Source: Methanobacteriota archaeon
GTDB lineage: Archaea; Thermoplasmatota; Poseidoniia; Poseidoniales; Poseidoniaceae
Reading direction: 5' to 3'
Assembly: GCA_002715725.1 (NCBI GenBank)
Contig: PAZU01000038.1
Location: 1 to 32,936 of the forward strand
DNA length: 32,936 bases
The number at the start of each line of letters is the position of its first letter. Position 1 is the stretch's first letter. Below, one piece after another: positions 562 to 21,310 of the stretch. Position numbers and translations under genes: made by a program. The notes beneath the pieces were generated by a model. That model saw nothing but the letters and a program-made list of their open reading frames with translations. It did not search any database and was not told the origin of the DNA.

Positions 562-3105
562 TCATGCAGAGATAGTTTCGTCTTGTTTAGGCCAATATTT
601 GTCGTAAAGCATGAATGCAGTAGAGGCCCCAATCAGCATCATACAGAACAACATGTCCCATCCGATTTTGAATACTAAACGAGGAAGATTCGGAGAAATG
701 GATAACTGAATTGCTAATCCTGCTAACCTAACCGAGAGAATTAGCACAGTCATCTGCAAAGGCCAAGAATTCCTTCTGAACAAATTCCACCACAATGTAC
801 CCATCAAAATTACAGGGCAAGCTCCCATCAAGAAAACCCAGTTGTTGCTTGGAGATAGGCGGTCTCCAATGTACCCGCCTTTGAGGAATAAGTTTCCTGG
901 GTCGATATCTCTAGGGTGAATTATTCCATCGGTTTGACCCAATGTTGCCCACCACGCAAACCATATGCCGATCGGTACTATTCCTAGCATGATATGTCTG
1001 CCGAATTCAGAGAACTTGCTATCAGTTTCTTCTTTCAGGTAGCTCCATTCTCTATTCATCAAGGATTCTATGCAGCCAAAGAAAATCATTGAGATTCCAC
1101 CGCCCCATGCACCCCAACTCATTGTTAGCCAAGCGAATGCGCAGTATTGGAAAACAGCATATGAATACGGTTTTTTCATTACTTGCAGGACGATTGAAGC
1201 AACCACTCCAGCAATTAGAGTCCAGATTAGGAACCAATCCACTGTGTTCGAATTTTGTGCAATTAGAACCGGTATAGTGGCCATTGCACCTGCTATGGCA
1301 AACGAGGTAGGCCATTTCCCATTTCTGAATCTCGAGGCGTAAATCAAAGTTAATGTGAATGCAATAACAACCGACCAAATTACAGCGTCTAATTCATCAG
1401 ATTGCGTAAACATGACCATGAAACGTGTTGCTGAGACGCCATATACTCTGTAATCGGAGAAAAAGATTGTAGCGATTAGAATCAAGATCAATGGAATGAG
1501 CAAGCGCTTAGGTGTCTTGTCGTCATTGTTCACGAACATGCGATTTTCAATCATCAAAACCAATCCAATCCATATTGGTAAAGCGATTATTGTGAATCTT
1601 GTTTCTGGGAAAATAATTGTGAATAATAGTACTGCAGATAAAATCGTTACATTTCGCTTAGTTGCTGTTTTTCGTCCGGTAAGTGACTGTTTAGATAACC
1701 AATAAAGTACGATTACACCAAAGAAACCTAGCGGATAATATAACCATGTCAACCAACCACGGCTGTAAGATACAAATGCTGAGATCGAAAACAGAACAAA
1801 GAATCCAATGGCTGCTTCATTAGCATATTCTGCTGTACTTTCATTCGATTTAAAAAATCTATATAAAAAACCACTGAAGACTAATATTGCCAATCCTGAT
1901 ATGATTAAATCAATATTTCTCATACCGATTTCATCGCCCCTGATTTTATCCCATTCGATTTTATCTTTAGACAGTCCATCAACGTAAGAATGTCCATTCT
2001 CTTCAAGCCAATCATTTCTCTCAACAGCAGCATCCCAATTCCACTGTTCGTACGCCTGATATTCTTCATCTGTCAAGTCGAATGCATCTAGCGGAACCTT
2101 TCCATGTATTGCATGAGGCATCGGGAGCCCGAAAATCATCGATGGAATTGTTGCTAGGTCTCTTTGTGCCATTCCCTTTACAGTTACTCCTTCAGCAATA
2201 TTAGGACCCCACATGAACCCAGCAGTTTCTCTAATCACAGGTTCAGGTGAACCATGTTGTCCAGTATCTGAAAGTCCGTGATCTGAGGTTACTAGGACAG
2301 TCCAGTTGTCTGGAACGAGATTAAACATCATGTCGAGATTATCATCGAGCCAAAGCAACTTTTCTTCAAATTCTGGTGAATCCTTTACCATGTACCTGTG
2401 GCCTACACTATCCAATCCAGAGAGGTGAGCTACAATCACATTAGGAGTCCTGTCATATCCTTCAGGGATGCCACCCTCAAGCCAATTTCTCAAAGTTACG
2501 AATGCCTCTTCATCCCCTTGGTAATAATCAGCATGACCGTATCTATGCTGCGAAAATGGAATCAAATCTCTATCTGGATAAAGGTCCTTCCAAACATAGT
2601 CGCCTAAGATTCCAAGTTGATGGTCATAATTTCCGTCATTATCTCCATCATGTGTGCTAACAAGTTTCCAACCATCAGGTGTGCCAGGATGCTCCGGGCG
2701 GAAGTTGGATAGTGCTTCATTCGGTTTTGAAGGAACTCCTGTGGCGATTTCTTTGACGCAGATCGCAGTCATTGTCATCGGATTAGATTCAATTTCCATG
2801 TAAGCGCCATCTTGAACTCTGGCGTTCAGTTTGGGCATGAATTCAGGGTCTCCCATCATGTTCCTGCCGCCGCCATCAATGACTACGAACAAGAAGCCGT
2901 CACTGAGTTGTTCAGAAGGGTATGGATTTTCTTCCATTCCTTCTAGTGGTGCTGGTGAATCTGAGATTATGTAATTACCAGTTACTAATAAGGATGGTAA
3001 TGCAATTAAGATGAAAACAAAAATTACTTGTCTAAATCTCGAATTAGAAATCAAAACAGTCGCCTTATTATCGTGCTGAAACTTTGTGGTTTTATCCTTT
3101 ATCAC
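562..3105 (-). CDS. Membrane alkaline-phosphatase-superfamily enzyme, GPI ethanolamine-phosphate transferase-like
   Basis: An 847-residue polytopic membrane enzyme. An N-terminal membrane anchor (about 26-45) precedes an extracytoplasmic phosphatase-superfamily domain (about 70-350), and roughly a dozen hydrophobic segments fill residues 400-840. Metal-ligand and catalytic motifs are visible: D77 in VVIDGGG, the Thr-rich nucleophile region at 109-123 (TMTAICVKEIATG, comparable to the TTT...KALTTG of PIG-N/O/G enzymes), D232 and H236 in GLDSVGH, D275-H276 in TSDHG, and H284. In eukaryotes this architecture transfers phosphoethanolamine to GPI glycans. Here a phospho-head-group transferase or phosphodiesterase acting on lipids or surface glycans is inferred; the substrate cannot be read from sequence. 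The SGNH hydrolase gene follows on the same strand. Confidence 0.75.
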   Translation of the reverse strand: MIKDKTTKFQHDNKATVLISNSRFRQVIFVFILIALPSLLVTGNYIISDSPAPLEGMEENPYPSEQLSDGFLFVVIDGGGRNMMGDPEFMPKLNARVQDGAYMEIESNPMTMTAICVKEIATGVPSKPNEALSNFRPEHPGTPDGWKLVSTHDGDNDGNYDHQLGILGDYVWKDLYPDRDLIPFSQHRYGHADYYQGDEEAFVTLRNWLEGGIPEGYDRTPNVIVAHLSGLDSVGHRYMVKDSPEFEEKLLWLDDNLDMMFNLVPDNWTVLVTSDHGLSDTGQHGSPEPVIRETAGFMWGPNIAEGVTVKGMAQRDLATIPSMIFGLPMPHAIHGKVPLDAFDLTDEEYQAYEQWNWDAAVERNDWLEENGHSYVDGLSKDKIEWDKIRGDEIGMRNIDLIISGLAILVFSGFLYRFFKSNESTAEYANEAAIGFFVLFSISAFVSYSRGWLTWLYYPLGFFGVIVLYWLSKQSLTGRKTATKRNVTILSAVLLFTIIFPETRFTIIALPIWIGLVLMIENRMFVNNDDKTPKRLLIPLILILIATIFFSDYRVYGVSATRFMVMFTQSDELDAVIWSVVIAFTLTLIYASRFRNGKWPTSFAIAGAMATIPVLIAQNSNTVDWFLIWTLIAGVVASIVLQVMKKPYSYAVFQYCAFAWLTMSWGAWGGGISMIFFGCIESLMNREWSYLKEETDSKFSEFGRHIMLGIVPIGIWFAWWATLGQTDGIIHPRDIDPGNLFLKGGYIGDRLSPSNNWVFLMGACPVILMGTLWWNLFRRNSWPLQMTVLILSVRLAGLAIQLSISPNLPRLVFKIGWDMLFCMMLIGASTAFMLYDKYWPKQDETISA

Positions 3106-3235
3106 GTCAACTTAGGTTACAAGTACCATTGTTTGGATTAAAGTGTTGAAGCAAGCCTTTTTGAACCACATCGTCAAGCACTAACCAAACAGGAGAAGCG
3201 AGGATTTTTTTTCGTTTGACCTAAATGGTGATACT
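3106..3235. promoter_or_regulatory. Divergent intergenic region
   Basis: 130 bases separate two genes transcribed away from each other (the phosphatase-like gene on minus, the ferritin-like gene on plus), so both promoters should lie here. A T8 run precedes the right-hand gene, and GGTGAT a few bases before the ATG at 3236 can serve as its ribosome binding site. No clear TATA box is recognised. Confidence 0.4.
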
Positions 3236-3649
3236 ATGTCGAAACTGATAGAAAAAATGAATCAAGCATTGGGCTTGGAACTTCGGGCAATCAACCTTTA
3301 TGCACACTATGCTGCTTACGTCAAAGGTTTGAATAGAATTCAATTGGAGCCTATGTTTCAGCAAGAAGCGAATGAATCTATGGTACATGCAGCAACCATT
3401 CGCAATGCAATTGTGAAGCATGGCGGAGAATGTGTTACTATCAGAGACCAGATGGTAATCGCACATACAACTGACACACTAGAGATGCTACAAGCAGCAC
3501 TTGCTACTGAGACCAAGGCTTCTGAAGTATACGGTGAGTTATTACCTCTGCTTGAGGAAATTTCTGATAGAGAATTATACGATGCAGTAGAGCAAATCTA
3601 TCTTGCTGAGTTAAGATCTGTTGAAGAGATAAGATTACTTTTGGATTGA
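3236..3649 (+). CDS. Ferritin-like four-helix protein with incomplete diiron ligand set
   Basis: A 137-residue, mostly helical protein resembling bacterioferritin/ferritin-like proteins. Helix 1 has E15 in LGLELRAINLYAHY. Helix 2 has EANESMVHA with E47 and H51. Helix 3 has E92 in LATETKASEVY. Helix 4 has YLAELRSVEEI. By hand alignment to the bacterioferritin EEMRHA and EExxH motifs, the helix 2 bridging Glu falls on S48, and the helix 4 Glu and His positions fall on L126 and S128, so an intact diiron centre is doubtful. The length is near the lower end for the superfamily. An iron-storage, oxidative-stress or purely structural role is possible. It appears to be a single-gene unit, followed 79 bases later by a small membrane protein. 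Confidence 0.6.
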   Translation: MSKLIEKMNQALGLELRAINLYAHYAAYVKGLNRIQLEPMFQQEANESMVHAATIRNAIVKHGGECVTIRDQMVIAHTTDTLEMLQAALATETKASEVYGELLPLLEEISDRELYDAVEQIYLAELRSVEEIRLLLD

Positions 3650-10555: not shown

Positions 10556-10628
10556 TTTTCACACCTGTCCCCTACGGGGACATGTGAAGGCGACATTCAT
10601 ATGCAGAGTGATAGTCGCATGTCCGTTG

Positions 10629-13600
10629 ATGAATATGCGCAAGTCGTTACCATTGTTCTTGGTGAGCCTCCTTTTGGTACAATCGATAATGTCAATTTCT
10701 GTTCAGAATGTTGAAGCCACAATGGGCCGCGGTGGCTCTACTGATGATTTCTCTGTCACAGATATTTCAATCAATTCAACTTCTGCAAGCCAATGGATTC
10801 AACCCGATGGTAGCGTAGTGATGTATGTTGCCAAGGGCGAACTCGTGGAAATTTCTGTTGAGGTGAAGAGAGGTGGTGCATCCCTCCAAGGCTCAAACGC
10901 AACAGTGACTGTGGAAATGGTTCATCCAATCGGTTTCGTAATGAATACTACTTCTTGGAATACTGTTCCTCTGTTGGGAAGTCAATCATTTACAGACTCT
11001 TTTGAATGGGAAGCATTCGTAGCTCATTCATATCTCAATGTATCCAATAATGAGTTGTCTGGTGGTATAATTATCAGGGCTCATGTATTCAATCCTTCAG
11101 ATGATCGAAATGAGAATGACATGATGGAGAAACCATTGCCTGTTGCTTTGGCACGTGACGACATGGATGCAGAAGGCGACCCAAGAGATTCAGCGCTTCC
11201 AGCAGCTGCAATTCCAACTTTCTACGGTGGAGAATATCCTCTTGACGGAAGCGATGCAAATGGACTTGGATACTGGCAAGAGGACAATTCAGCATCTGCA
11301 GTCGGTGAAGCTAATTGGAGACATGCTAACTCGGGTTCAGATTATGCTTCTAATTCTAGAAGCCGTCTAGTATTCGCTTTCAGAGGCACAAACAGTAACT
11401 GTGGCTATGGTGCGTCTTTGGACGGAGGATTATCTCAACAATACATCCAATGGATGTGTAAGATGCAACTCAATTCTGCAGGTCTAATGTCTGCACAAAT
11501 GCATGTCCAAACATGGGGCCAAATGGGTGCAGGTGATTTCGTTGCACTTGAACTATGGAGAGGCAACGGCGCACCTGAAAATACCATTTCTCACAATTTC
11601 GTAGAGGATGCGCCAAGCACTACACCCGGTCAATGGAGTAATATTTCATGGGATCCAACAGACCAACTAGGCGGGCATTCATGGTCATACGGTATCTTGT
11701 TCCAATCAGATAGTTCGGGTGCATCTAGTGGAATGCACGTCGATGATTTCGTTATGTTTGGAATTGAGAAGGTTAGCGAATACACTCTAGACATTACTTG
11801 TGACGACCCTACTGGAGGATACACAACACCTCCAAACACGATTATTCCAATGTACTGTGTTGTAAAGAACAATGGTTACCAATCTGCACAAGTAAGAATC
11901 CAATCCAATGTTTCCAATGTTTCTTGGATGAACCCAAGTCTGCCTGCGATTAGAATCGATAGTGAAAACCCTAACCAACATGGAACCACTGTTATGCTAC
12001 CCGCAATACCAGGAGGAAACACATCTGAAATGTGGATCAATCTATCAGTTCCTGCTGGTGCAGATGTCCAACAACAAGTTTGGCAAGTCTGGTGGGAAGA
12101 TGCAGGAGGTACTCAGTTAGGCGAAATGGGTCGGATAACTGCAGACCTAGCAATAACAGAACAGTATGGCGTTCACCTATCTTCAACCGCACCTCTGCTT
12201 GCTGATAGTTTGTATCCTGGTGAGACGACATCTATACCATTCAAATTACAAAACGCAGGGAACAGAGAAGCGGGGTACACAGTAACTTCCAATTTCCAAA
12301 GCGAAGGTTGGGTTTCGTATGTTACAGATTTGAATCACAGTATTGTTCAGATGCCTATGCCTCTAGTTAAGGGAGAGGAAGTACAGTTGTTGCTTAATGT
12401 AACAGCTCCTGCTGATGCCTCACCGGGAGATGTCCCTTTCTCATTACGCGCTGTATGTCCTTCATGCGGTGAATCACTATTCGGTACTGATGTTATTTCT
12501 AAGAAAATTGAAATTCCAGTTCTAAGAGAAGTGGAAATGTATGCTGAAGAAATGGAAATTTTGGCTCCTGCGAATGGAAATTCAAAGGTAGTATACATCG
12601 ATTTGCTGAATTTAGGAAATGACGACGAAGCATATGCTCTAAATCTTGTCCAATCTAATTGGAAATTACAAGCCTACCTTTCATCTGACGAGACTCCAGT
12701 TCTTGATGCATGGGACGGAGAAACAAGTATTGCACTGAATCTTCCTATGCCGGTGGGTCTTGCTCCGGGACTATACACTGCAAGAGTAACTGCAACTAGC
12801 CTAGATGACCCAACAGTTTCAGAACAGATAACAATCAATGTGGATGTTACTGATACCTCTGCGGTATGGGTTTCTGATGAAGAAGCCGACCAATCTTACA
12901 TTCCAGGTTCTGAGGCTCAATCAATGCGTTTCGAAGTTAGAAATGACGGCAATCAGGATGATAGATTTACTATGAGCATGGAACTCCCAGAAGGAATGAA
13001 TGCAGAATTCGTTCAACTTGTAGATGGCGACATGACTCCAATTTTGGAGCCAGGCGCTACCCACAATGTTACTGTCAGATTCACGTTTGATGAAGGAACA
13101 AATGGTCAATTGATTCTCAAGGTGGTAGCGACAAGTGTCAACGATCCAACAGTTTCTAGTAACGGCAAGTGTACATACAGAGTTGGTTCCCAGAACTGGC
13201 TTAGAATCATCTCTACCGAATCAACAATTATCGATGAAGCTGGTGAGTATGAGGTCATTGTTACTGTCAGAAACCAATACAATGACGGCCAATCCGTCAC
13301 TATGGACCTCGACCAAGGCGGCACAAACCGTTGGTACAGTGCTTCTGTTGCTGCTAACGACAGAGACTTCTGGTTGGAAGTTGAAGGAAATAGAGAGGTA
13401 ACCATCAAGTTTGTAGTTCAAAGTTCAAGTCTTGAAAACCTCGATGAAGAATTTATTGAAACATCTGTAACTGTTTGGGCTATTTCAAATTCAGTTGAAG
13501 ACGCAGCATCTCTAGAATTACCTGTAACTCTGAAGAGAACTTCAGCAGATGCTGATTCTGCTTCTTCCGGAGGAGATTCAATCGATTGGGTTGGAATCGG

Positions 13601-13916
13601 AATCTGGGTTGTTGGTGGTGCTACAATCATTGCTTTACTTGGAGTATTATTGATGGTTCTCAACAGCGAAGAGGAAGAAGAACAGCCAGACTGGGCTGGA
13701 GATGGCTACGAAGATAACCTGACTGCAACCTATGGCGCAGTTGCTGCGGCACCAAATGTTGGCTCAATGGAAAACAGTGTTCAAAACATGGCGCCTCCAT
13801 CGCCGGAACCGACTGTTCAATCAGGTCCTCCGGTTCCAGCAGAAGGCCTTCCAGAAGGCTGGACTATGGAACAATGGAGCCACTATGGGCAGCAATGGCT
13901 CGACAATAACCGTTGA
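10629..13916 (+). CDS. Large secreted surface protein with Ig-like repeats and C-terminal membrane anchor
   Basis: About 1095 residues. It has a signal peptide (about 1-28), an extracellular region whose first third resembles a jelly-roll or MAM/LamG-like domain, then four or five beta-sandwich repeats of the CARDB/NEW kind. These are recognisable by recurring phrases such as QNAGNREAGY, LNLGNDDEAY, RNDGNQDDRF and RNQYNDGQSV. A transmembrane helix lies at about 988-1012 and an acidic, Pro-rich cytoplasmic tail ends in GWTMEQWSHYGQQWL (1077-1091). Likely an adhesion or cell-envelope protein. ATG 10629 is preferred over the upstream GTG 10584 because the signal peptide begins there (ATG 10635 is also possible) and TTCATATG about 30 bases earlier could be a TATA element. 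Confidence 0.75.
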   Translation: MNMRKSLPLFLVSLLLVQSIMSISVQNVEATMGRGGSTDDFSVTDISINSTSASQWIQPDGSVVMYVAKGELVEISVEVKRGGASLQGSNATVTVEMVHPIGFVMNTTSWNTVPLLGSQSFTDSFEWEAFVAHSYLNVSNNELSGGIIIRAHVFNPSDDRNENDMMEKPLPVALARDDMDAEGDPRDSALPAAAIPTFYGGEYPLDGSDANGLGYWQEDNSASAVGEANWRHANSGSDYASNSRSRLVFAFRGTNSNCGYGASLDGGLSQQYIQWMCKMQLNSAGLMSAQMHVQTWGQMGAGDFVALELWRGNGAPENTISHNFVEDAPSTTPGQWSNISWDPTDQLGGHSWSYGILFQSDSSGASSGMHVDDFVMFGIEKVSEYTLDITCDDPTGGYTTPPNTIIPMYCVVKNNGYQSAQVRIQSNVSNVSWMNPSLPAIRIDSENPNQHGTTVMLPAIPGGNTSEMWINLSVPAGADVQQQVWQVWWEDAGGTQLGEMGRITADLAITEQYGVHLSSTAPLLADSLYPGETTSIPFKLQNAGNREAGYTVTSNFQSEGWVSYVTDLNHSIVQMPMPLVKGEEVQLLLNVTAPADASPGDVPFSLRAVCPSCGESLFGTDVISKKIEIPVLREVEMYAEEMEILAPANGNSKVVYIDLLNLGNDDEAYALNLVQSNWKLQAYLSSDETPVLDAWDGETSIALNLPMPVGLAPGLYTARVTATSLDDPTVSEQITINVDVTDTSAVWVSDEEADQSYIPGSEAQSMRFEVRNDGNQDDRFTMSMELPEGMNAEFVQLVDGDMTPILEPGATHNVTVRFTFDEGTNGQLILKVVATSVNDPTVSSNGKCTYRVGSQNWLRIISTESTIIDEAGEYEVIVTVRNQYNDGQSVTMDLDQGGTNRWYSASVAANDRDFWLEVEGNREVTIKFVVQSSSLENLDEEFIETSVTVWAISNSVEDAASLELPVTLKRTSADADSASSGGDSIDWVGIGIWVVGGATIIALLGVLLMVLNSEEEEEQPDWAGDGYEDNLTATYGAVAAAPNVGSMENSVQNMAPPSPEPTVQSGPPVPAEGLPEGWTMEQWSHYGQQWLDNNR

Positions 13917-15699: not shown

Positions 15700-17868
15700 A
15701 TGTCGCAGGTCGCTGGCAATCCTGATATTGCAATCTTCTTTGGTTCTCAAACCGGTAATGCCGAGGAATTAGCAGCTAATACTGCTAAATTAGCAAAAAA
15801 AAGCGGCCTTAATCCAAAGATTTTCGATATGGATGGATTTGACCCATCCACCTTTTCTTCTCACAAAAGAGTCCTAATTATCACTTCAACTTGGGGTGAG
15901 GGCGATATGCCTGACAATGCAGAAGACCTTTGGATTGCAACTTGTGAATTAAATCCAAACCTAGCAGGTGTTAATTTCTCAGTCTGTGCAATTGGAGATA
16001 CTTCATATGACGAGTTCTGTAAAGCCGGGATTGATTGGGATGAAAAGTTTGTAGCATTAGGCGCATCTCGTGTTCACAATATACAATTGTGCGATGTAGA
16101 ATATGAGCCGGAATGGAAGAAATGGGCTGATGCTGTAATTCCATTGATGGCAGCAGTTGATGGTGGCGAGTCTACAGAATCAGCAGATATCGTCGAAGAG
16201 ACTGCAGTTGTTTCAAGCGAATCGGAAAATGTAGTAAGTGCAGATGCAGGTGAATTATCAGGACTATTATCTGGCGACCGCAGTATAGCAATCTTCTTCG
16301 GTTCTCAAACCGGAAACGCTGCAGGGCTAGCAGAGAAGACAGCAAAGATGGCTGCTAATTATGGCCTTGAGCCAACAGTTATTGACATGGATGGTTATGA
16401 CCCAGCAGCGTTCTCCTCTCACAAAAGAATTCTAATCATAACCTCTACATGGGGTGAAGGAGAGATGCCTGATAATGCGGATGCTCTTTGGAATGCAACT
16501 GTTGCAAGCAATCCTCCTTTGGCCAATGTCCACTTCTCAGTCTGTGCAATTGGGGACACTTCATACGACGAGTACTGTAAGGCAGGTCTTGATTGGGATG
16601 AGAAATTCAAGGCATTGGGCGCCACTTGCATAGAGGAAATAAAACTCTGCGATGTAGATTTCGAACCTCCATGGTTGGAGTGGGCGCCACTTGCACTTTC
16701 CAAGATCGCTTGTGTTGATTCTTCAGGAACTTTCCAAGAGGGATTACTAGAGGCTATGATTGCATACGGTTCTGGTGAGGAAGAAGAAGCAGATACTGGC
16801 GATTTCACTCCAGGTCAGATAGTACAGGCTGACCTTTCTATCACAATGCGTATTTTCCGCTACAACCCAACATTGGCACAATCTGGTTTCGATACAGTAG
16901 CAGTAGCACTCCCTGGGCACGCTTCAATTGAGGATGCACTGGTCGCAATCAAGAGAGAAGTAGATGGTTCACTAACCTTCAGGAGCGGTTCTATTGCAGG
17001 GCAGGACCCGCTTACAGGAATCAAAGCAAATGGTAGAATTTTGCCTGCAGACACCACTCGAATTTGTGACATTGTTTCTGATGGAGACACTCTAACAATC
17101 GAGCCAGTACCTGGGTACGACGTTCTAAAAGATCTGATGGTCTCTTATGACCGATATGACACTGTTCGAGCTGAATCAAAACCTTGGATGGACGCAGACC
17201 CACGCCAAGGTGAGAGGTTAGTTTCCGGAGCAGCAATGGGTACAATGACTTCTGCAGAAGCAACTCACTTGCATACATTAGCAGATGTTGGTTCACTTCA
17301 ACTGGTTAATGCAATGTCCGACACATATGATGTCGATGAAGAATATTCGGGACCAGGAATTGCATTACAAAGATGGGTTAGAAGCCAAGACCCTCGTTCA
17401 GGCGAAGGACATGTTAAGCAGATGTTTGAACTAATGCAGAGAAAGGGTGGTGTTTGGGATGAAGCAGATATTTCCTCAATCCAGAGGCATGGAATCGATG
17501 GCTCACAGGCAGCAGATTCTCTTTATGATGCAAGGGCTAGGCTGTTGGCTGAATACAAATTCACTGGTCGCAGCGGCAGGTTGGTCAAACATTATTCCCG
17601 TTCAGTAAAGATGTCAGGAAATGTCAATGAGACCACTCTATACCGCTCAGTGCTTGGCCCTCTAGGTCTTGGTTCTAACATCATGAATGGTGTCTCTTTG
17701 CGAATGATGCTTGGATTTACTAGAAATGGCGGTCCGATGATGCGTGGATTCCAAGGTATGCTTGTGCCTCCAGCAGGAATTGGTAAGATTCCAAATATGT
17801 TCAATGGCAAGGTTGCCAATCATCACGAAGTCGTTGCAATATTCAACGAGTTAGATAGCAGATTTTGA
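15700..17868 (+). CDS. Tandem flavodoxin domains fused to a cysteine-less SdhB/TfrB-like domain
   Basis: 722 residues in three parts. Two flavodoxin domains (about 7-150 and 193-336) of the sulfite/cytochrome P450 reductase type each keep the FMN phosphate loop SQTGNA, the STWGEG(D/E)MPDNA loop and AIGDTSYDE(F/Y)CKAG. Residues about 380-635 follow the scaffold of succinate dehydrogenase/fumarate reductase iron-sulfur subunits: the DGSLTFR...NGR..PADTT region, IEPVPGYDVLKDL..., KPWM, GPGIALQRWVRSQDPR, GGVW. All expected cluster cysteines are replaced: the [2Fe-2S] set within 427-453, the first cluster motif near 523-538 and the second near 587-606. Only C456 is nearby, at a non-ligand position. 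No flavoprotein SdhA is adjacent. The HdrB-like gene follows, coupled by a Shine-Dalgarno site on this gene's stop codon. The function is unknown. Confidence 0.8.
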   Translation: MSQVAGNPDIAIFFGSQTGNAEELAANTAKLAKKSGLNPKIFDMDGFDPSTFSSHKRVLIITSTWGEGDMPDNAEDLWIATCELNPNLAGVNFSVCAIGDTSYDEFCKAGIDWDEKFVALGASRVHNIQLCDVEYEPEWKKWADAVIPLMAAVDGGESTESADIVEETAVVSSESENVVSADAGELSGLLSGDRSIAIFFGSQTGNAAGLAEKTAKMAANYGLEPTVIDMDGYDPAAFSSHKRILIITSTWGEGEMPDNADALWNATVASNPPLANVHFSVCAIGDTSYDEYCKAGLDWDEKFKALGATCIEEIKLCDVDFEPPWLEWAPLALSKIACVDSSGTFQEGLLEAMIAYGSGEEEEADTGDFTPGQIVQADLSITMRIFRYNPTLAQSGFDTVAVALPGHASIEDALVAIKREVDGSLTFRSGSIAGQDPLTGIKANGRILPADTTRICDIVSDGDTLTIEPVPGYDVLKDLMVSYDRYDTVRAESKPWMDADPRQGERLVSGAAMGTMTSAEATHLHTLADVGSLQLVNAMSDTYDVDEEYSGPGIALQRWVRSQDPRSGEGHVKQMFELMQRKGGVWDEADISSIQRHGIDGSQAADSLYDARARLLAEYKFTGRSGRLVKHYSRSVKMSGNVNETTLYRSVLGPLGLGSNIMNGVSLRMMLGFTRNGGPMMRGFQGMLVPPAGIGKIPNMFNGKVANHHEVVAIFNELDSRF

Positions 17869-17874
17869 GGTGAT
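17867..17874 (+). promoter_or_regulatory. Shine-Dalgarno site setting the HdrB-like start
   Basis: GAGGTGAT begins inside the TGA stop of the flavodoxin fusion gene and ends four bases before ATG 17879. It favours that ATG over the in-frame GTG at 17870, which lies within the site itself. Confidence 0.75.
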
Positions 17875-17878
17875 TGTA

Positions 17879-18739
17879 ATGGTGAAGTATTCGTATTTTC
17901 CGGGAAATGTTGCACGCCAATCTTCTTCAGAGGTTGAAGATACAATTCAGCCACTATGTAAAACTCTAGGGATTGAGTTGATCGAGATTGTAGGCTATAA
18001 CAGCGACGGCGGCAATATCATCAAGCAAGGTAACAGAGACCTCCAACTTGCACTAAATGCCAGAAACATTGCATTAGCTGAGAAGAATGGTCATCCGATA
18101 ATTACTGCTTGTGCTTCAGCCCAAGGAATTCTACACGAGGCTCTAGAGACCTTCAGAAATGACCCAATCGCTCTTGCCAATGCAAACACTGTTCTGTCCA
18201 AGATATCTGGCATGTCTGCTAAAGCAGATGAAATTACGACCAATCATCTACTGCATGTGTTGGTTGATGAAATTGGATTGGAGAAAGTCGAAAAAGCGGT
18301 CATAAACCCACTAAACATGGATGTCGCTTGCTATTACGGGCCACACATGCAGCAAGCTGGTGCTTGTGGGGGAGATGATGCATGGAATCCAAATTACATG
18401 GAGAAGTTAATCACTGCTCTAGGTGGAAGACCAGTAGAATACAAGACCAAGACATCTAGCGTAGGGAATCCTTCCTTGCTCTCCTTGGGAGACTCGGTAA
18501 TGAAAATGACTGCAAGAGTGCTAAATGATGCAAAGAGAGCAGGAGCTCAAATTATTGTCAGCGCTTGTACTCAATCACATTCTAATCTTGATTCTTATCA
18601 AGGTAAAGCAGGCCGAGTTGCTAGCAAAGATACTAACATTCCAGCTGTTAATCTGACAGAAATTATCTCTTTTGCTTTGGGTCACTTCCCTGACAGATTT
18701 GCTCAGTTGAAAACCCGTGCAATATTGATTGGTTCTTGA
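17879..18739 (+). CDS. HdrB/SdhE-like protein with most CCG-motif cysteines lost
   Basis: 286 residues with the full-length outline of heterodisulfide reductase subunit B and of the CCG-domain subunits of type-E succinate dehydrogenases. Recognisable segments are YSYFPGN at the N-terminus, LGIELIEIVGYNSDGG, ITACASAQGIL, YYGPHMQ, ALGGRPVEYKTKTSSVGN and VSACTQSHSNLD. In HdrB these positions carry two CX(31-39)CCGX(33-39)CXXC motifs binding noncubane [4Fe-4S] clusters. Here the ten ligand positions read N10, S42, D43, C78, A81, P155, S193, S194, C230 and S233, so only C78 and C230 remain. Canonical cluster binding is therefore not expected. The partner is probably the flavodoxin-SdhB-like protein encoded just upstream. 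The stop abuts the convergent Hef gene. Confidence 0.8.
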   Translation: MVKYSYFPGNVARQSSSEVEDTIQPLCKTLGIELIEIVGYNSDGGNIIKQGNRDLQLALNARNIALAEKNGHPIITACASAQGILHEALETFRNDPIALANANTVLSKISGMSAKADEITTNHLLHVLVDEIGLEKVEKAVINPLNMDVACYYGPHMQQAGACGGDDAWNPNYMEKLITALGGRPVEYKTKTSSVGNPSLLSLGDSVMKMTARVLNDAKRAGAQIIVSACTQSHSNLDSYQGKAGRVASKDTNIPAVNLTEIISFALGHFPDRFAQLKTRAILIGS

Positions 18740-21310
18740 TTACCCGTGCAAGAATTTGAACAGATCCTTTGCTTGTATTGAAGAAACCCCTTCAATTTGA
18801 GTTAGTTGTTGCTCACTCAAAGCACAAAGACCCATAATGTCCTTGGCTACAGCCATTATTCGTTTCGCTGTAACATTACCAATACCTGGTAATTCTGCAA
18901 TAAGTTTGACACGCTTTTCCAACACTTCATCCTTCCACTTTTTTGACAAAACACCCTCTTCATTTTCACCGCCAATAATTGACATTATTTCTGCAGAAGC
19001 AGCTTGAATTGCTGATTTTTCAGCATCATTTGATTTCTTTCGTGAATGATTGATTAGCAAATCCAAAACTCTTGCTTCTCTTTTGGCTACAATAGATATG
19101 AATCTTGCAGTTTGTTCAGGCGAACCAGTCATCAAAACTGGTAACCCAAGGTCGAGTGTTACCCATGCCATTGCTCCATGTACTGCATTAGGATGTACTC
19201 TTTCTGTTTCCAATGATTCCACAATCAGCAAAGGCCTCGGTGCTGCAGCATGTAATCTACGTGCTTGATGAATCAATCTTCCATCTATCAAAGAATCTAC
19301 CAAATCTCTAGCAGTCTTCCTTTCGATTAATACTCTATCAGAGATTCTGATGTCACCAACTGTAAGATTCTCGAAACTAATTTCGTGACCGTGCAATTTG
19401 AGCATTGCAGGTAACGTCGAATTCGCTTCACGGTGATCTATTGTAATCATCGAATGAATTTCATTTTGAAGGCTATTTGCTAGTACTTCGGCCTGTGCGG
19501 CGGCTGATGCCTTAGATTCCTCATCTCTTGAATGGGGATTAGTGCCATCTAGAACAGGTTTCCACCATTTTTGTTCGTTTTGGTTTTTTTGCTCATTCGA
19601 GAATTCAGCGAGGGACTTTTGTGCCCTAGGTCTATTGGTTAAGGGTGCAGCGCTTTTCTTCTCTTCTTTTGTTTGAATTTGTTTAGGCTCTATAATCTCC
19701 TTTTCTCTGTACAACCTTTTCTCTTCCGATTCAATGAATGAATCAATATCCTTTCCATCTACGCTAAAATCTCCTAATACATCTGATATTGGAGCAGCTC
19801 TTTTTGGTAATCGAGATTGTTTTTGTAATGATTCAAGAGTTCTATACATCGCTTGCTCACGCTTTAGTGAAGCCTGCTGTACATACTCGTCACGAGTACC
19901 CTTAGCAATCAGAATATGAACATCTCCATCTCTTTGCCTAGCCGTTCTTCCTCTTCGCTGTATGGCTCTGATTGCACTAGGGACAGGCTCGTACAAAATC
20001 ACACTATCAGCTGCCGGGACATCGAGTCCTTCTTCGCCTACACTTGTAGCGACTAGAACATTGATTTCGCCTTCTTTGAATCTCTGTAATTGGGCGATTT
20101 GTTCCTTTTGTTTCATCCCTAGTTGACTTCCTTTGCTGGCTTGACCAACAAATCTTCCAGGTCTAATTTCTGATTCGTTTTCAAGTATCTCAAGCAGATT
20201 ATCTACAGTGTCTCTGTATTCGGTGAATACGATTACCTTTCCATTATTCTTCAGACCATCTCTAACCAATTTTACAACTAGTGAAGGTTTAGGATGAAAC
20301 TCTGTCTCTTCCACCCTTTCTCTTAGTAAACTTGCTACTGGTGGCAATGATAGGAATCTCTTAGTCTTACGGTCCTTATCCAATTTAGCCCTTTGAAGAT
20401 ACTTTTTTGCACACTTCAAACCTTGTGTGTCGAGCAAATCCAGAAGCCTATGCAATCTGCGGATGTCACCAATTCTCTTGGCCGCATCGTATCCTCTAGC
20501 ATCACCTCTGCCTATCGCAGCACTAGCCCTGCGTTGTGCTTCTTCAATTGCTGCTGTTGTTATTCGTCCTGAGCGAATCAAGAAACCAGACCTTATCAAA
20601 AACTCAGCCTCTTCAGCCTCTAAAATCCTTAACGGCCTGATAATTTCGTGAAGTTCTTCAGGAATATTCAACTCATGTTTTGTTATATCCATCGATGTAA
20701 TGTATGGCTGTACCAAGTCATCCTGCCTTTTGGTTACATGAAGTCTCTCGATTCCAAGCCTTTGAATAACTTCCAAAACCTTGCCAGCCTTAACTCCAGG
20801 CGATGCTGTTGCGGCTAATACTAGTGCATTCGATGATGCTTCAAGATACATGTCTCCTAGTTGCGCCATCGAATCCGAACCTGTTGCATGATGTGCTTCA
20901 TCTACGATCAATAGGTCAATGTTTGATAGTAATATTCTGCCGCTTCTAGCATCATTACGAATTACATGAGGCGTTGCCATCACGATTTTTGCATCACCCC
21001 ATATCTTCTCTCTTTTTGCAGGCCTGTCTTGCCCTGTTAGGGTAACAATCTTTTCAGAATCTATGTTTATGAAATCTTTAGCCATTCTAGCTTGTTGTGC
21101 TACTAGACCTGTAGTTGGGGCCACAAGTACAATTTTCCCATCACCGTCCAATGCATTGGCCATAGCCATCCATTGCACAGCAGTCTTCCCTAGCCCAGTA
21201 GGCATTACGAGTAATGTAGAACCAGAAATCGCTTGCTTTGCAGCAAGTAATTGGTATGCTCTCGCCTCTACTCCTTCGCTAAGGCGAGGGTGAGACAGCA
21301 TAGGCGTCAT
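18740..21310 (-). CDS. hef: Hef-type helicase/XPF-family structure-specific nuclease
   Basis: An 856-residue protein with both halves of archaeal Hef. The N-terminal superfamily 2 helicase has a Walker A motif PTGLGKT (37-43), DEAH (137-140), TAS (168-170) and a C-terminal motif VI region AIQRRGRTARQRDGD. After a charged linker comes the ERCC4 nuclease domain, with IDHRE at 624-628 and the catalytic ERKTARD at 663-669, then two helix-hairpin-helix motifs (LPGIGNVTAKRI near 807-818 and IEGVSSIQAKDL near 839-850). Family members unwind and cut stalled replication forks and branched DNA. All key motifs are present, so it should be active. Its 3' end touches the HdrB-like gene, and 338 bases of non-coding sequence separate its start from the ribosomal operon. 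Confidence 0.95.
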   Translation of the reverse strand: MTPMLSHPRLSEGVEARAYQLLAAKQAISGSTLLVMPTGLGKTAVQWMAMANALDGDGKIVLVAPTTGLVAQQARMAKDFINIDSEKIVTLTGQDRPAKREKIWGDAKIVMATPHVIRNDARSGRILLSNIDLLIVDEAHHATGSDSMAQLGDMYLEASSNALVLAATASPGVKAGKVLEVIQRLGIERLHVTKRQDDLVQPYITSMDITKHELNIPEELHEIIRPLRILEAEEAEFLIRSGFLIRSGRITTAAIEEAQRRASAAIGRGDARGYDAAKRIGDIRRLHRLLDLLDTQGLKCAKKYLQRAKLDKDRKTKRFLSLPPVASLLRERVEETEFHPKPSLVVKLVRDGLKNNGKVIVFTEYRDTVDNLLEILENESEIRPGRFVGQASKGSQLGMKQKEQIAQLQRFKEGEINVLVATSVGEEGLDVPAADSVILYEPVPSAIRAIQRRGRTARQRDGDVHILIAKGTRDEYVQQASLKREQAMYRTLESLQKQSRLPKRAAPISDVLGDFSVDGKDIDSFIESEEKRLYREKEIIEPKQIQTKEEKKSAAPLTNRPRAQKSLAEFSNEQKNQNEQKWWKPVLDGTNPHSRDEESKASAAAQAEVLANSLQNEIHSMITIDHREANSTLPAMLKLHGHEISFENLTVGDIRISDRVLIERKTARDLVDSLIDGRLIHQARRLHAAAPRPLLIVESLETERVHPNAVHGAMAWVTLDLGLPVLMTGSPEQTARFISIVAKREARVLDLLINHSRKKSNDAEKSAIQAASAEIMSIIGGENEEGVLSKKWKDEVLEKRVKLIAELPGIGNVTAKRIMAVAKDIMGLCALSEQQLTQIEGVSSIQAKDLFKFLHG

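Follow-up and report, generated by a model that had tools for sequence, protein, structure and literature searches.

The closest described relatives of the gene pair analyzed here are the E-type succinate:quinone oxidoreductases and 8-methylmenaquinol:fumarate reductases (SdhABE and MfrABE), for which passages of PMC2680327 describe a ten-cysteine motif in SdhE and a second [4Fe-4S] cluster in SdhB. The pair lies on a 32,936-nt stretch of DNA (the window), which is contig C38 of a genome of Poseidoniales (Marine Group II, MGII) labelled G000. Its genes, a flavodoxin-flavodoxin-SdhB* fusion (gene 1) and HdrB* (gene 2), where the asterisk denotes a cluster-less form, have the same adjoining SdhB and SdhE folds in the same order as SdhABE and MfrABE, but there is no sdhA beside them, the SdhB cluster cysteines and all but two of the ten-cysteine motif of SdhE are gone, and carrier domains have been added. 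Gene 2 also shares its whole fold with HdrB of HdrABC, and one of the two CCG sites of HdrB persists in some relatives, whereas both are incomplete in the window. The flavodoxins of gene 1 are like those of CysJ and the NADPH diflavin reductases, which combine a flavin adenine dinucleotide (FAD) module, FNR, with a flavin mononucleotide (FMN) flavodoxin. In contrast to those enzymes, the FAD/NADPH module is here a separate gene, the SdhB-HdrB scaffold, apart from that module, bears the FMN carriers, and the siroheme sulfite reductase that is the usual acceptor of CysJ has no match in the genomes searched. Substitution of ferredoxin (Fd) by flavodoxin (Fld), as treated in the abstract of PMC9687028, likewise exchanges iron-sulfur (Fe-S) and FMN one-electron carriers; at this locus the swapped unit is a fused domain at a single chromosomal site, with at least 18 changes, rather than one of two free proteins.

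No description of an SdhB*-HdrB* carrier module was found in literature searches of titles and abstracts. In the one mention of the locus that these searches turned up, passages of PMC6741140 place two genes, labelled succinate dehydrogenase cytochrome b subunit and sulfite reductase flavoprotein alpha component, between a helicase and a thermosome gene; from these named neighbors we infer that they are the present pair and that the labels are misleading. What is new is the combination and the cluster-free state, by which the pair lacks a defining feature of every known family it was tested against; the folds and the carriers are known. We propose that the pair is probably an electron-delivery module of Poseidoniales, in which an SdhB*-HdrB* scaffold with carrier arms would work with a CysJ-type FNR encoded elsewhere in the genome.

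The SdhB and HdrB Folds Persist without a Full Set of Cluster Ligands

A total of 121 loci were collected, comprising the window, 40 loci requested by place, which we picked from two earlier genome scans for relatives of gene 1 and gene 2, and the 80 best among 562 loci confirmed in a named genome collection. Removal of 5 broken or short loci (L130, L133, L145, L158, L162) and 12 duplicates left 104 distinct orthologues, a set biased toward the relatives of the window. L132 and L136 were retained despite broken frames, as was L164, in which the ferredoxin and the remainder occupy two frames. Cysteine columns were set by alignment to five canonical SdhB and two canonical SdhE proteins from other Thermoplasmatota.

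Pfam searches matched gene 1 to Flavodoxin_1 twice (E 2.4e-57) and to Fer2_3 (E 1.7e-8, over the curated cut-off), and no match to FAD_binding_1 or NAD_binding_1 was found in it. Its top NCBIfam match was CysJ, via the flavodoxins; it also matched the SdhB models PRK12576 (E 1.3e-12) and TIGR00384 (E 2.9e-9), both under the model cut-offs. An AlphaFold model built with relatives had a mean predicted local distance difference test (pLDDT) of 74.1 and a predicted template modeling score (pTM) of 0.39, with the linker unordered; its top structure matches were SdhB chains (6lum_K, E 6.6e-12, target TM 0.77), and the SdhB fold therefore persists despite the missing ligands. Gene 2 matched the NCBIfam models for methylmenaquinol:fumarate reductase SdhE (E 1.9e-36) and HdrB (TIGR03288, E 1e-33), both below equivalog cut-offs, as well as an HdrB chain among PDB sequences (E 6.5e-28), and its AlphaFold model with relatives (pLDDT 90.6) had HdrB 5odc_B as top PDB match (TM 0.87). 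Family searches, models and structure matches thus agree with an earlier note on this DNA, made from the sequence alone, which had read the two adjoining genes as having SdhB and HdrB/SdhE ancestry and folds.

None of the twelve SdhB ligand columns holds a cysteine in the window. The earlier note had counted roughly eleven erased cysteines; the erasure stands, but the count does not, as E-type SdhB has 12. Over the 104 rows, nine of the columns are without any cysteine and the other three have one in 2, 1, and 1 rows, so that a complete ligand set is absent from 104/104 orthologues, ferredoxin-bearing or not. Two former ligand positions are occupied by invariant residues, S540 and E588 (104/104). 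The former cluster loops are conserved to the same degree as the rest of the domain; this loss of special constraint suggests that SdhB* is probably a holder. The C-terminal tail can be aligned in part with canonical SdhB tails of family f6 and is possibly the contact with HdrB*. In one orthologue (L147, 846 residues) this tail carries an insert of ~128 residues, at residues about 673-802, which is missing from its close relative L057.

HdrB* of the window keeps two of ten cluster cysteines, C81 and C233, as had been claimed, and these occupy equivalent places of the two CCG motifs in the alignment. C81 is retained in 103/104 orthologues and C233 in 104/104. The C-terminal CCG site is incomplete in every row, with conserved substitutes at S197 (104/104), V198 (101/104), and S236 (102/104). 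The earlier note had named orthologues with full cysteine sets as a finding that would remove its claim; no SdhB* has such a set, while in HdrB* one site of the two, the N-terminal one, has all five cysteines in 10/104 rows and four of the five in one more. These eleven rows are all ferredoxin-bearing and fall in the clades that branch first within each family on a midpoint-rooted scaffold tree (SdhB* plus HdrB*; 103 rows, L068 omitted; quick search without bootstrap). The ten orthologues with one complete site would represent an intermediate. The tree calls for two separate losses of the N-terminal site, yet a single loss was not rejected (approximately unbiased test, p = 0.237, 46 rows), and two losses are not claimed. 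The former cluster loops of HdrB* exceed random blocks in conservation (p = 0.0012, 93 rows), and conservation is unusually high around C81, C233, N13, S45, S197, and S236.

Ferredoxin and Flavodoxin Are Exchanged in the N-Terminal Carrier Domain

Both flavodoxins of gene 1, which had been noticed earlier together with their intact FMN loops, were recovered by Pfam and by loop patterns. All three FMN-loop patterns occur in 29/29 N-terminal flavodoxins (FldA) and are complete in 99/103 second flavodoxins (FldB); of the four exceptions, two lack the third pattern (L041, L160) and two are truncated or masked (L136, L139). As judged from sequence, these domains have the flavodoxin fold with FMN-binding loops, and FMN binding is predicted.

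The carrier layout differs among orthologues, with 64 Fd-Fld, 29 Fld-Fld, 10 single Fld, and 1 single Fd. Four of the ten single-flavodoxin rows are doubtful: the locus is truncated at the contig start in L102 and L139, broken and in part masked in L136, and split in L164, where another frame encodes the ferredoxin. The other six are free of such doubt. The N-terminal ferredoxin is a single-cluster [4Fe-4S] protein whose cysteines follow CxxCxxC...CP (Pfam Fer4_13). At least 18 changes between Fd and Fld-Fld forms are needed on the scaffold tree; the window and L072 (both Fld-Fld), for example, are sister to L093 and L094 (both Fd-Fld). Median linker lengths are 42 residues (Fd-Fld), 47 residues (Fld-Fld), and 27 residues (Fld-SdhB*), and the linkers are rich in A, E, S, G, D, and V; together with the unordered region of the model, they look like mobile arms. 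These comparisons place an exchange of FMN for Fe-S in the tethered N-terminal carrier domain. The earlier note had offered FMN replacing Fe-S as one reading of the pair; this holds for the carrier domain and is not supported for the lost SdhB and HdrB clusters, since the 65 ferredoxin-bearing orthologues are also without SdhB ligand sets and the flavodoxin was therefore not traded for them.

Recent horizontal transfer of FldA in family f1 was considered and set aside, as distant rows resemble each other to a like extent in FldA and in FldB; the exchange is claimed, not its date. Ferredoxin-bearing and Fld-Fld forms share collections by record title (SI, FRAM, and AG-422 series), titles that we take to denote Saanich Inlet, Fram Strait, and one single-cell plate. 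Single-cell genomes, again by title, show both forms (Fld-Fld in L092, L113, and L142; Fd-Fld in L140), so binning does not account for them.

Two individual loci have unusual layouts. L059 (genome G046) has a ferredoxin joined directly to SdhB*, with both flavodoxins missing, the sole case among the 104. At L164:3033-5004 one stop codon parts a ferredoxin frame from an Fld-SdhB* frame, which represents either a split gene or a base error.

A CysJ-Type Reductase Covaries with the Carrier Type

The gene 1 search also matched a 603-residue CysJ-type reductase in the genome of the window (L189). Its FAD/NADPH half, FNR, occurs in 140/145 genomes of the class, alone or fused to a flavodoxin, and the fusion varies between species. 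FNR was typed by frame length; when 20 loci were opened, a flavodoxin was present in 7/7 frames of >=600 residues and in 0/13 shorter ones. The resulting table covers 121 genomes, with seven genomes that have FNR and no typed gene 1 excluded, G038 omitted (its FNR lies at a contig start, with no flavodoxin seen), and G001 scored as Fld-FNR by hand, its frame being cut by the contig end.

FNR is alone in 79 and fused in 0 of the ferredoxin-bearing genomes, alone in 16 and fused in 16 with Fld-Fld, and alone in 1 and fused in 9 with a single flavodoxin. Fused Fld-FNR is thus found in 25/42 ferredoxin-less and 0/79 ferredoxin-bearing genomes (Fisher p = 5e-15, relatedness ignored). A relatedness-aware test on the 79 of 121 genomes placed on the tree gave 13 independent contrasts, of which 7-9 ran the same way and 0 the opposite way (sign p = 0.004-0.016). 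Within the genus of the window, where 20/27 genomes were typed for both genes, fused FNR occurs in 0/14 ferredoxin-bearing and 6/6 Fld-Fld genomes.

A flavodoxin tree, from which the FNR flavodoxin of G134 (78 residues) was left off as too short, gave a corresponding picture. In family f1, eight FNR flavodoxins form one clade with 8/10 FldA domains (bootstrap/Shimodaira-Hasegawa-like approximate likelihood ratio test, 99/96), and in family f2 six FNR flavodoxins lie inside a clade with 5/13 FldA domains (100/98), which indicates that, in either family, gene 1 and FNR have come to share related flavodoxins. Taken together, these data are good evidence, at the level of sequence, that the gene 1 carriers and FNR are partners, with a shared outside pressure as the rival account.

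Conventional CysJ-CysI sulfite reduction was rejected as the role of this reductase, since PF01077, the siroheme reductase that is the usual acceptor of CysJ, had no match in 9/9 genomes, while the control search gave a signal in 11 of 14.

Origin, Distribution, and Locus

A profile of SdhB* was searched over 292 genomes of the phylum and matched 133, namely 80 MGII genomes, 2 of sister family f3 (weakly), and 51 outside the class. The matches outside the class are canonical SdhB; 47 of the 51 were opened and cluster cysteine motifs were present in 47/47, with a variant 2Fe-2S motif in L188 only. The nearest relatives outside the order, from other Thermoplasmatota, have the gene order sdhA-sdhB-sdhE in 4/5 cases (L182-L186, read by eye). 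From the cysteine-bearing SdhB outside the class and these neighbors, the sequence comparison identifies the MGII pair as a descendant of the sdhB-sdhE half of an E-type succinate:quinone oxidoreductase.

Gene 1 is present in 60/61 relatives, the miss being a genome that is 59% complete (G012). Gene 2 was found in 119/145 genomes of the class, corresponding to 119/124 MGII genomes searched; it was missed in 5 MGII genomes and in 21 genomes of f3, where the family of 6 unlisted misses was inferred from the FNR survey. The pair is thus absent from f3 (0/21). Gene 1 and gene 2 adjoin and are co-directional in 40/40 of the by-place MGII loci. In one of these (L048) they form a single 997-residue frame, a weak sign of contact, since a single wrong base close to where the genes meet could create the fusion. 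Within the fetched stretches, a thermosome gene neighbors the pair at 99/103 loci and a Hef-like helicase at 100/103. The ratio of nonsynonymous to synonymous substitution (dN/dS) is 0 to 0.17 in every domain over the 14 pairs where it was computable, with two values saturated. By these sequence measures the pair is order-wide in Poseidoniales, syntenic, and under purifying selection, and the earlier statement that the cysteines were erased within full-length frames and not in a pseudogene is upheld by the open frames and the dN/dS values.

No sdhA was found beside the pair. The earlier suggestion to look for a separate canonical SdhB led to one of another type in 7/7 MGII genomes checked, and in a complete chromosome (G036) and the genome of the window this SdhB adjoins SdhA and has its cysteines intact. 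An orphan SdhA partner was sought with PF00890 in eight genomes and rejected on the strong matches of G000 and G035, the second of which reads as NadB in both (by eye); in G000 there are 7 FAD_binding_2 matches, of which the two strongest are SdhA of the canonical complex and the NadB-like protein (by eye). A viral carrier was likewise rejected, as none of the 24 viral-contig stretches that matched the search pattern encodes an HdrB* relative. Coordinates of the features are given in Table 1.

Table 1. Coordinates of the gene pair, its domains and former cluster sites in the window, and of the CysJ-type reductase on another contig of the same genome.
Feature	Position	Strand	Basis or remark
Gene 1, flavodoxin-flavodoxin-SdhB* fusion, 722 residues	15700..17868	+	Open frame, stop ends at 17868; domain searches; model
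N-terminal flavodoxin (FldA)	15721..16149	+	Pfam Flavodoxin_1; place taken by a [4Fe-4S] ferredoxin in 65/104 orthologues
Flexible linker between carrier domains	16150..16278	+	pLDDT <50 at residues 156-183 (AlphaFold)
Second flavodoxin (FldB)	16279..16749	+	Pfam Flavodoxin_1; found in 103/104, exception L059
SdhB* domain, SdhB fold, 0/12 cluster cysteines	16831..17559	+	Family searches, alignment, structure match
C-terminal tail, best-conserved portion of SdhB*	17560..17865	+	Mean entropy 1.03 vs 1.72
Gene 2, HdrB* (SdhE/HdrB fold), 289 residues	17870..18739	+	Open frame, GTG start at 17870; family searches; model
Former N-terminal CCG site (N13, S45, D46, C81, A84)	17906..18121	+	Alignment
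Former C-terminal CCG site (P158, S197, V198, C233, S236)	18341..18577	+	Alignment
CysJ-type FAD/NADPH reductase (L189)	1621-3429, G000 contig C29	minus	Gene 1 search match

Several side observations were made during these searches. On the minus strand at window positions 18740-21310 lies the Hef-like gene, beside ribosomal protein genes; judged by eye, its translation looks like a DEAH helicase with an ERCC4-type nuclease and a helix-hairpin-helix region after it. A 1110-residue protein with a weak CARDB match is encoded at 10584-13916, upstream of the thermosome gene, and has a relative at 90/103 loci. One copy of the pair (L124, CALDQY010000296.1) is on a contig titled Rhodobiaceae bacterium, which was probably wrongly binned in a public genome. 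An unannotated 11.6-kb record from human feces, filed as phage, contains a 28.6% match to SdhB* (H1, MT836661.1:9408-10007), perhaps an ordinary SdhB.

Discussion

The reading that we consider the more probable is that the pair delivers electrons in concert with FNR. The sequences show that the SdhB and SdhE of an ancestral E-type enzyme have lost the SdhB ligand sets, stand without sdhA alongside, have kept their folds and adjacency, and have gained one or two carrier domains on long linkers. Electrons would pass from NADPH to the FAD of the CysJ-type FNR; the tethered flavodoxin or ferredoxin arms of gene 1 would take them from this FAD, swing to the scaffold, and deliver them to an acceptor at SdhB*-HdrB*. 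SdhB* would be the docking or holding part and not a wire. With less assurance, the acceptor site may be the old cluster cleft of HdrB*, a cleft we favor as the working site because its loops stay conserved and C81 and C233 sit at equivalent CCG places.

Several observations weigh against this reading. The link between carrier type and FNR is one-directional, as 17/42 ferredoxin-less genomes have FNR alone. The association of single-flavodoxin gene 1 with Fld-FNR (9/10) does not reach significance over its 4 contrasts (p = 0.25-0.5), and counting the omitted G038 would make it 9/11. FNR is present in 19/21 f3 genomes, none of which has the pair, and FNR therefore has or had other partners. Two stand-alone flavodoxins on long branches also fall in the f2 clade of the flavodoxin tree. 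Both changes could, moreover, stem from one pressure on two proteins that never meet. In addition, the model of gene 1 is of modest quality, the orthologue sample leans to the relatives of the window, and one orthologue (L043) has a serine at position 81.

We also entertain, tentatively and with the odds against it, a bolder version in which HdrB* is an enzyme, a metal-free descendant of heterodisulfide reductase/SdhE. Its redox chemistry would have passed to the two pseudo-symmetric cysteines C81 and C233, or to a new cofactor bound where the double cluster used to be, with NADPH as the source of electrons through the CysJ-type FAD reductase and the interchangeable Fd/Fld arms. At the other extreme, the SdhB*-HdrB* pair may be a non-catalytic docking scaffold that brings carriers to another oxidoreductase, with an HdrB* cleft devoid of chemistry. 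The SdhB* cluster loops evolve like the remainder of the domain, the C-terminal tail is best conserved, as expected for an interface, and the scaffold is kept while the carrier type is exchanged; but the former cluster loops of HdrB* surpass random blocks in conservation, with near-invariant polar and thiol residues, and a complete CCG site persists in 10/104 orthologues. We regard such an adaptor as possible, if on balance doubtful.

The exchange in gene 1 and the fusion of flavodoxin to FNR could instead be separate answers to one pressure, such as iron or oxygen, given by proteins that do not interact. FNR without flavodoxin in 17/42 ferredoxin-less genomes and FNR without the pair in f3 are both compatible with this. 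Yet closely related flavodoxins are common to FNR and gene 1 in both families, no ferredoxin-bearing genome among 79 has a fused FNR, and the fusion of FNR with a flavodoxin does not of itself spare iron, all of which makes independence unlikely.

A further account, that FMN domains replaced the lost SdhB and HdrB clusters to save iron in iron-poor ocean water, draws on the presence of flavodoxins with intact loops, on the repeated swap of the N-terminal ferredoxin for flavodoxin, and on low-iron Fd/Fld substitution as established elsewhere (abstract of PMC9687028). It is improbable on present evidence, given that the SdhB ligand sets are missing even where a ferredoxin is kept, that canonical SdhB is retained in all seven MGII genomes checked, and that both carrier forms occur in the same collections by record title. 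A decaying remnant, assembly chimera, or pseudogene, which the few broken or cut loci (the five removed, L132, L136, and L164) might evoke, is refuted by purifying selection, fixed synteny, the near-universal presence of gene 1 among relatives, and single-cell genomes of both types.

The hosts of the module that we favor are very common ocean archaea. If our reading is right, a respiratory Fe-S complex has been turned stepwise into a scaffold free of clusters, and intermediates of this change survive today; should HdrB* prove to be an enzyme, the lineages in which one CCG site is complete would be living stages on the way from an Fe-S to a cluster-free active site. The locus would also hold a natural series of ferredoxin/flavodoxin swaps, and its matched natural pairs would allow a test of when iron-sulfur can give way to flavin in a cell.

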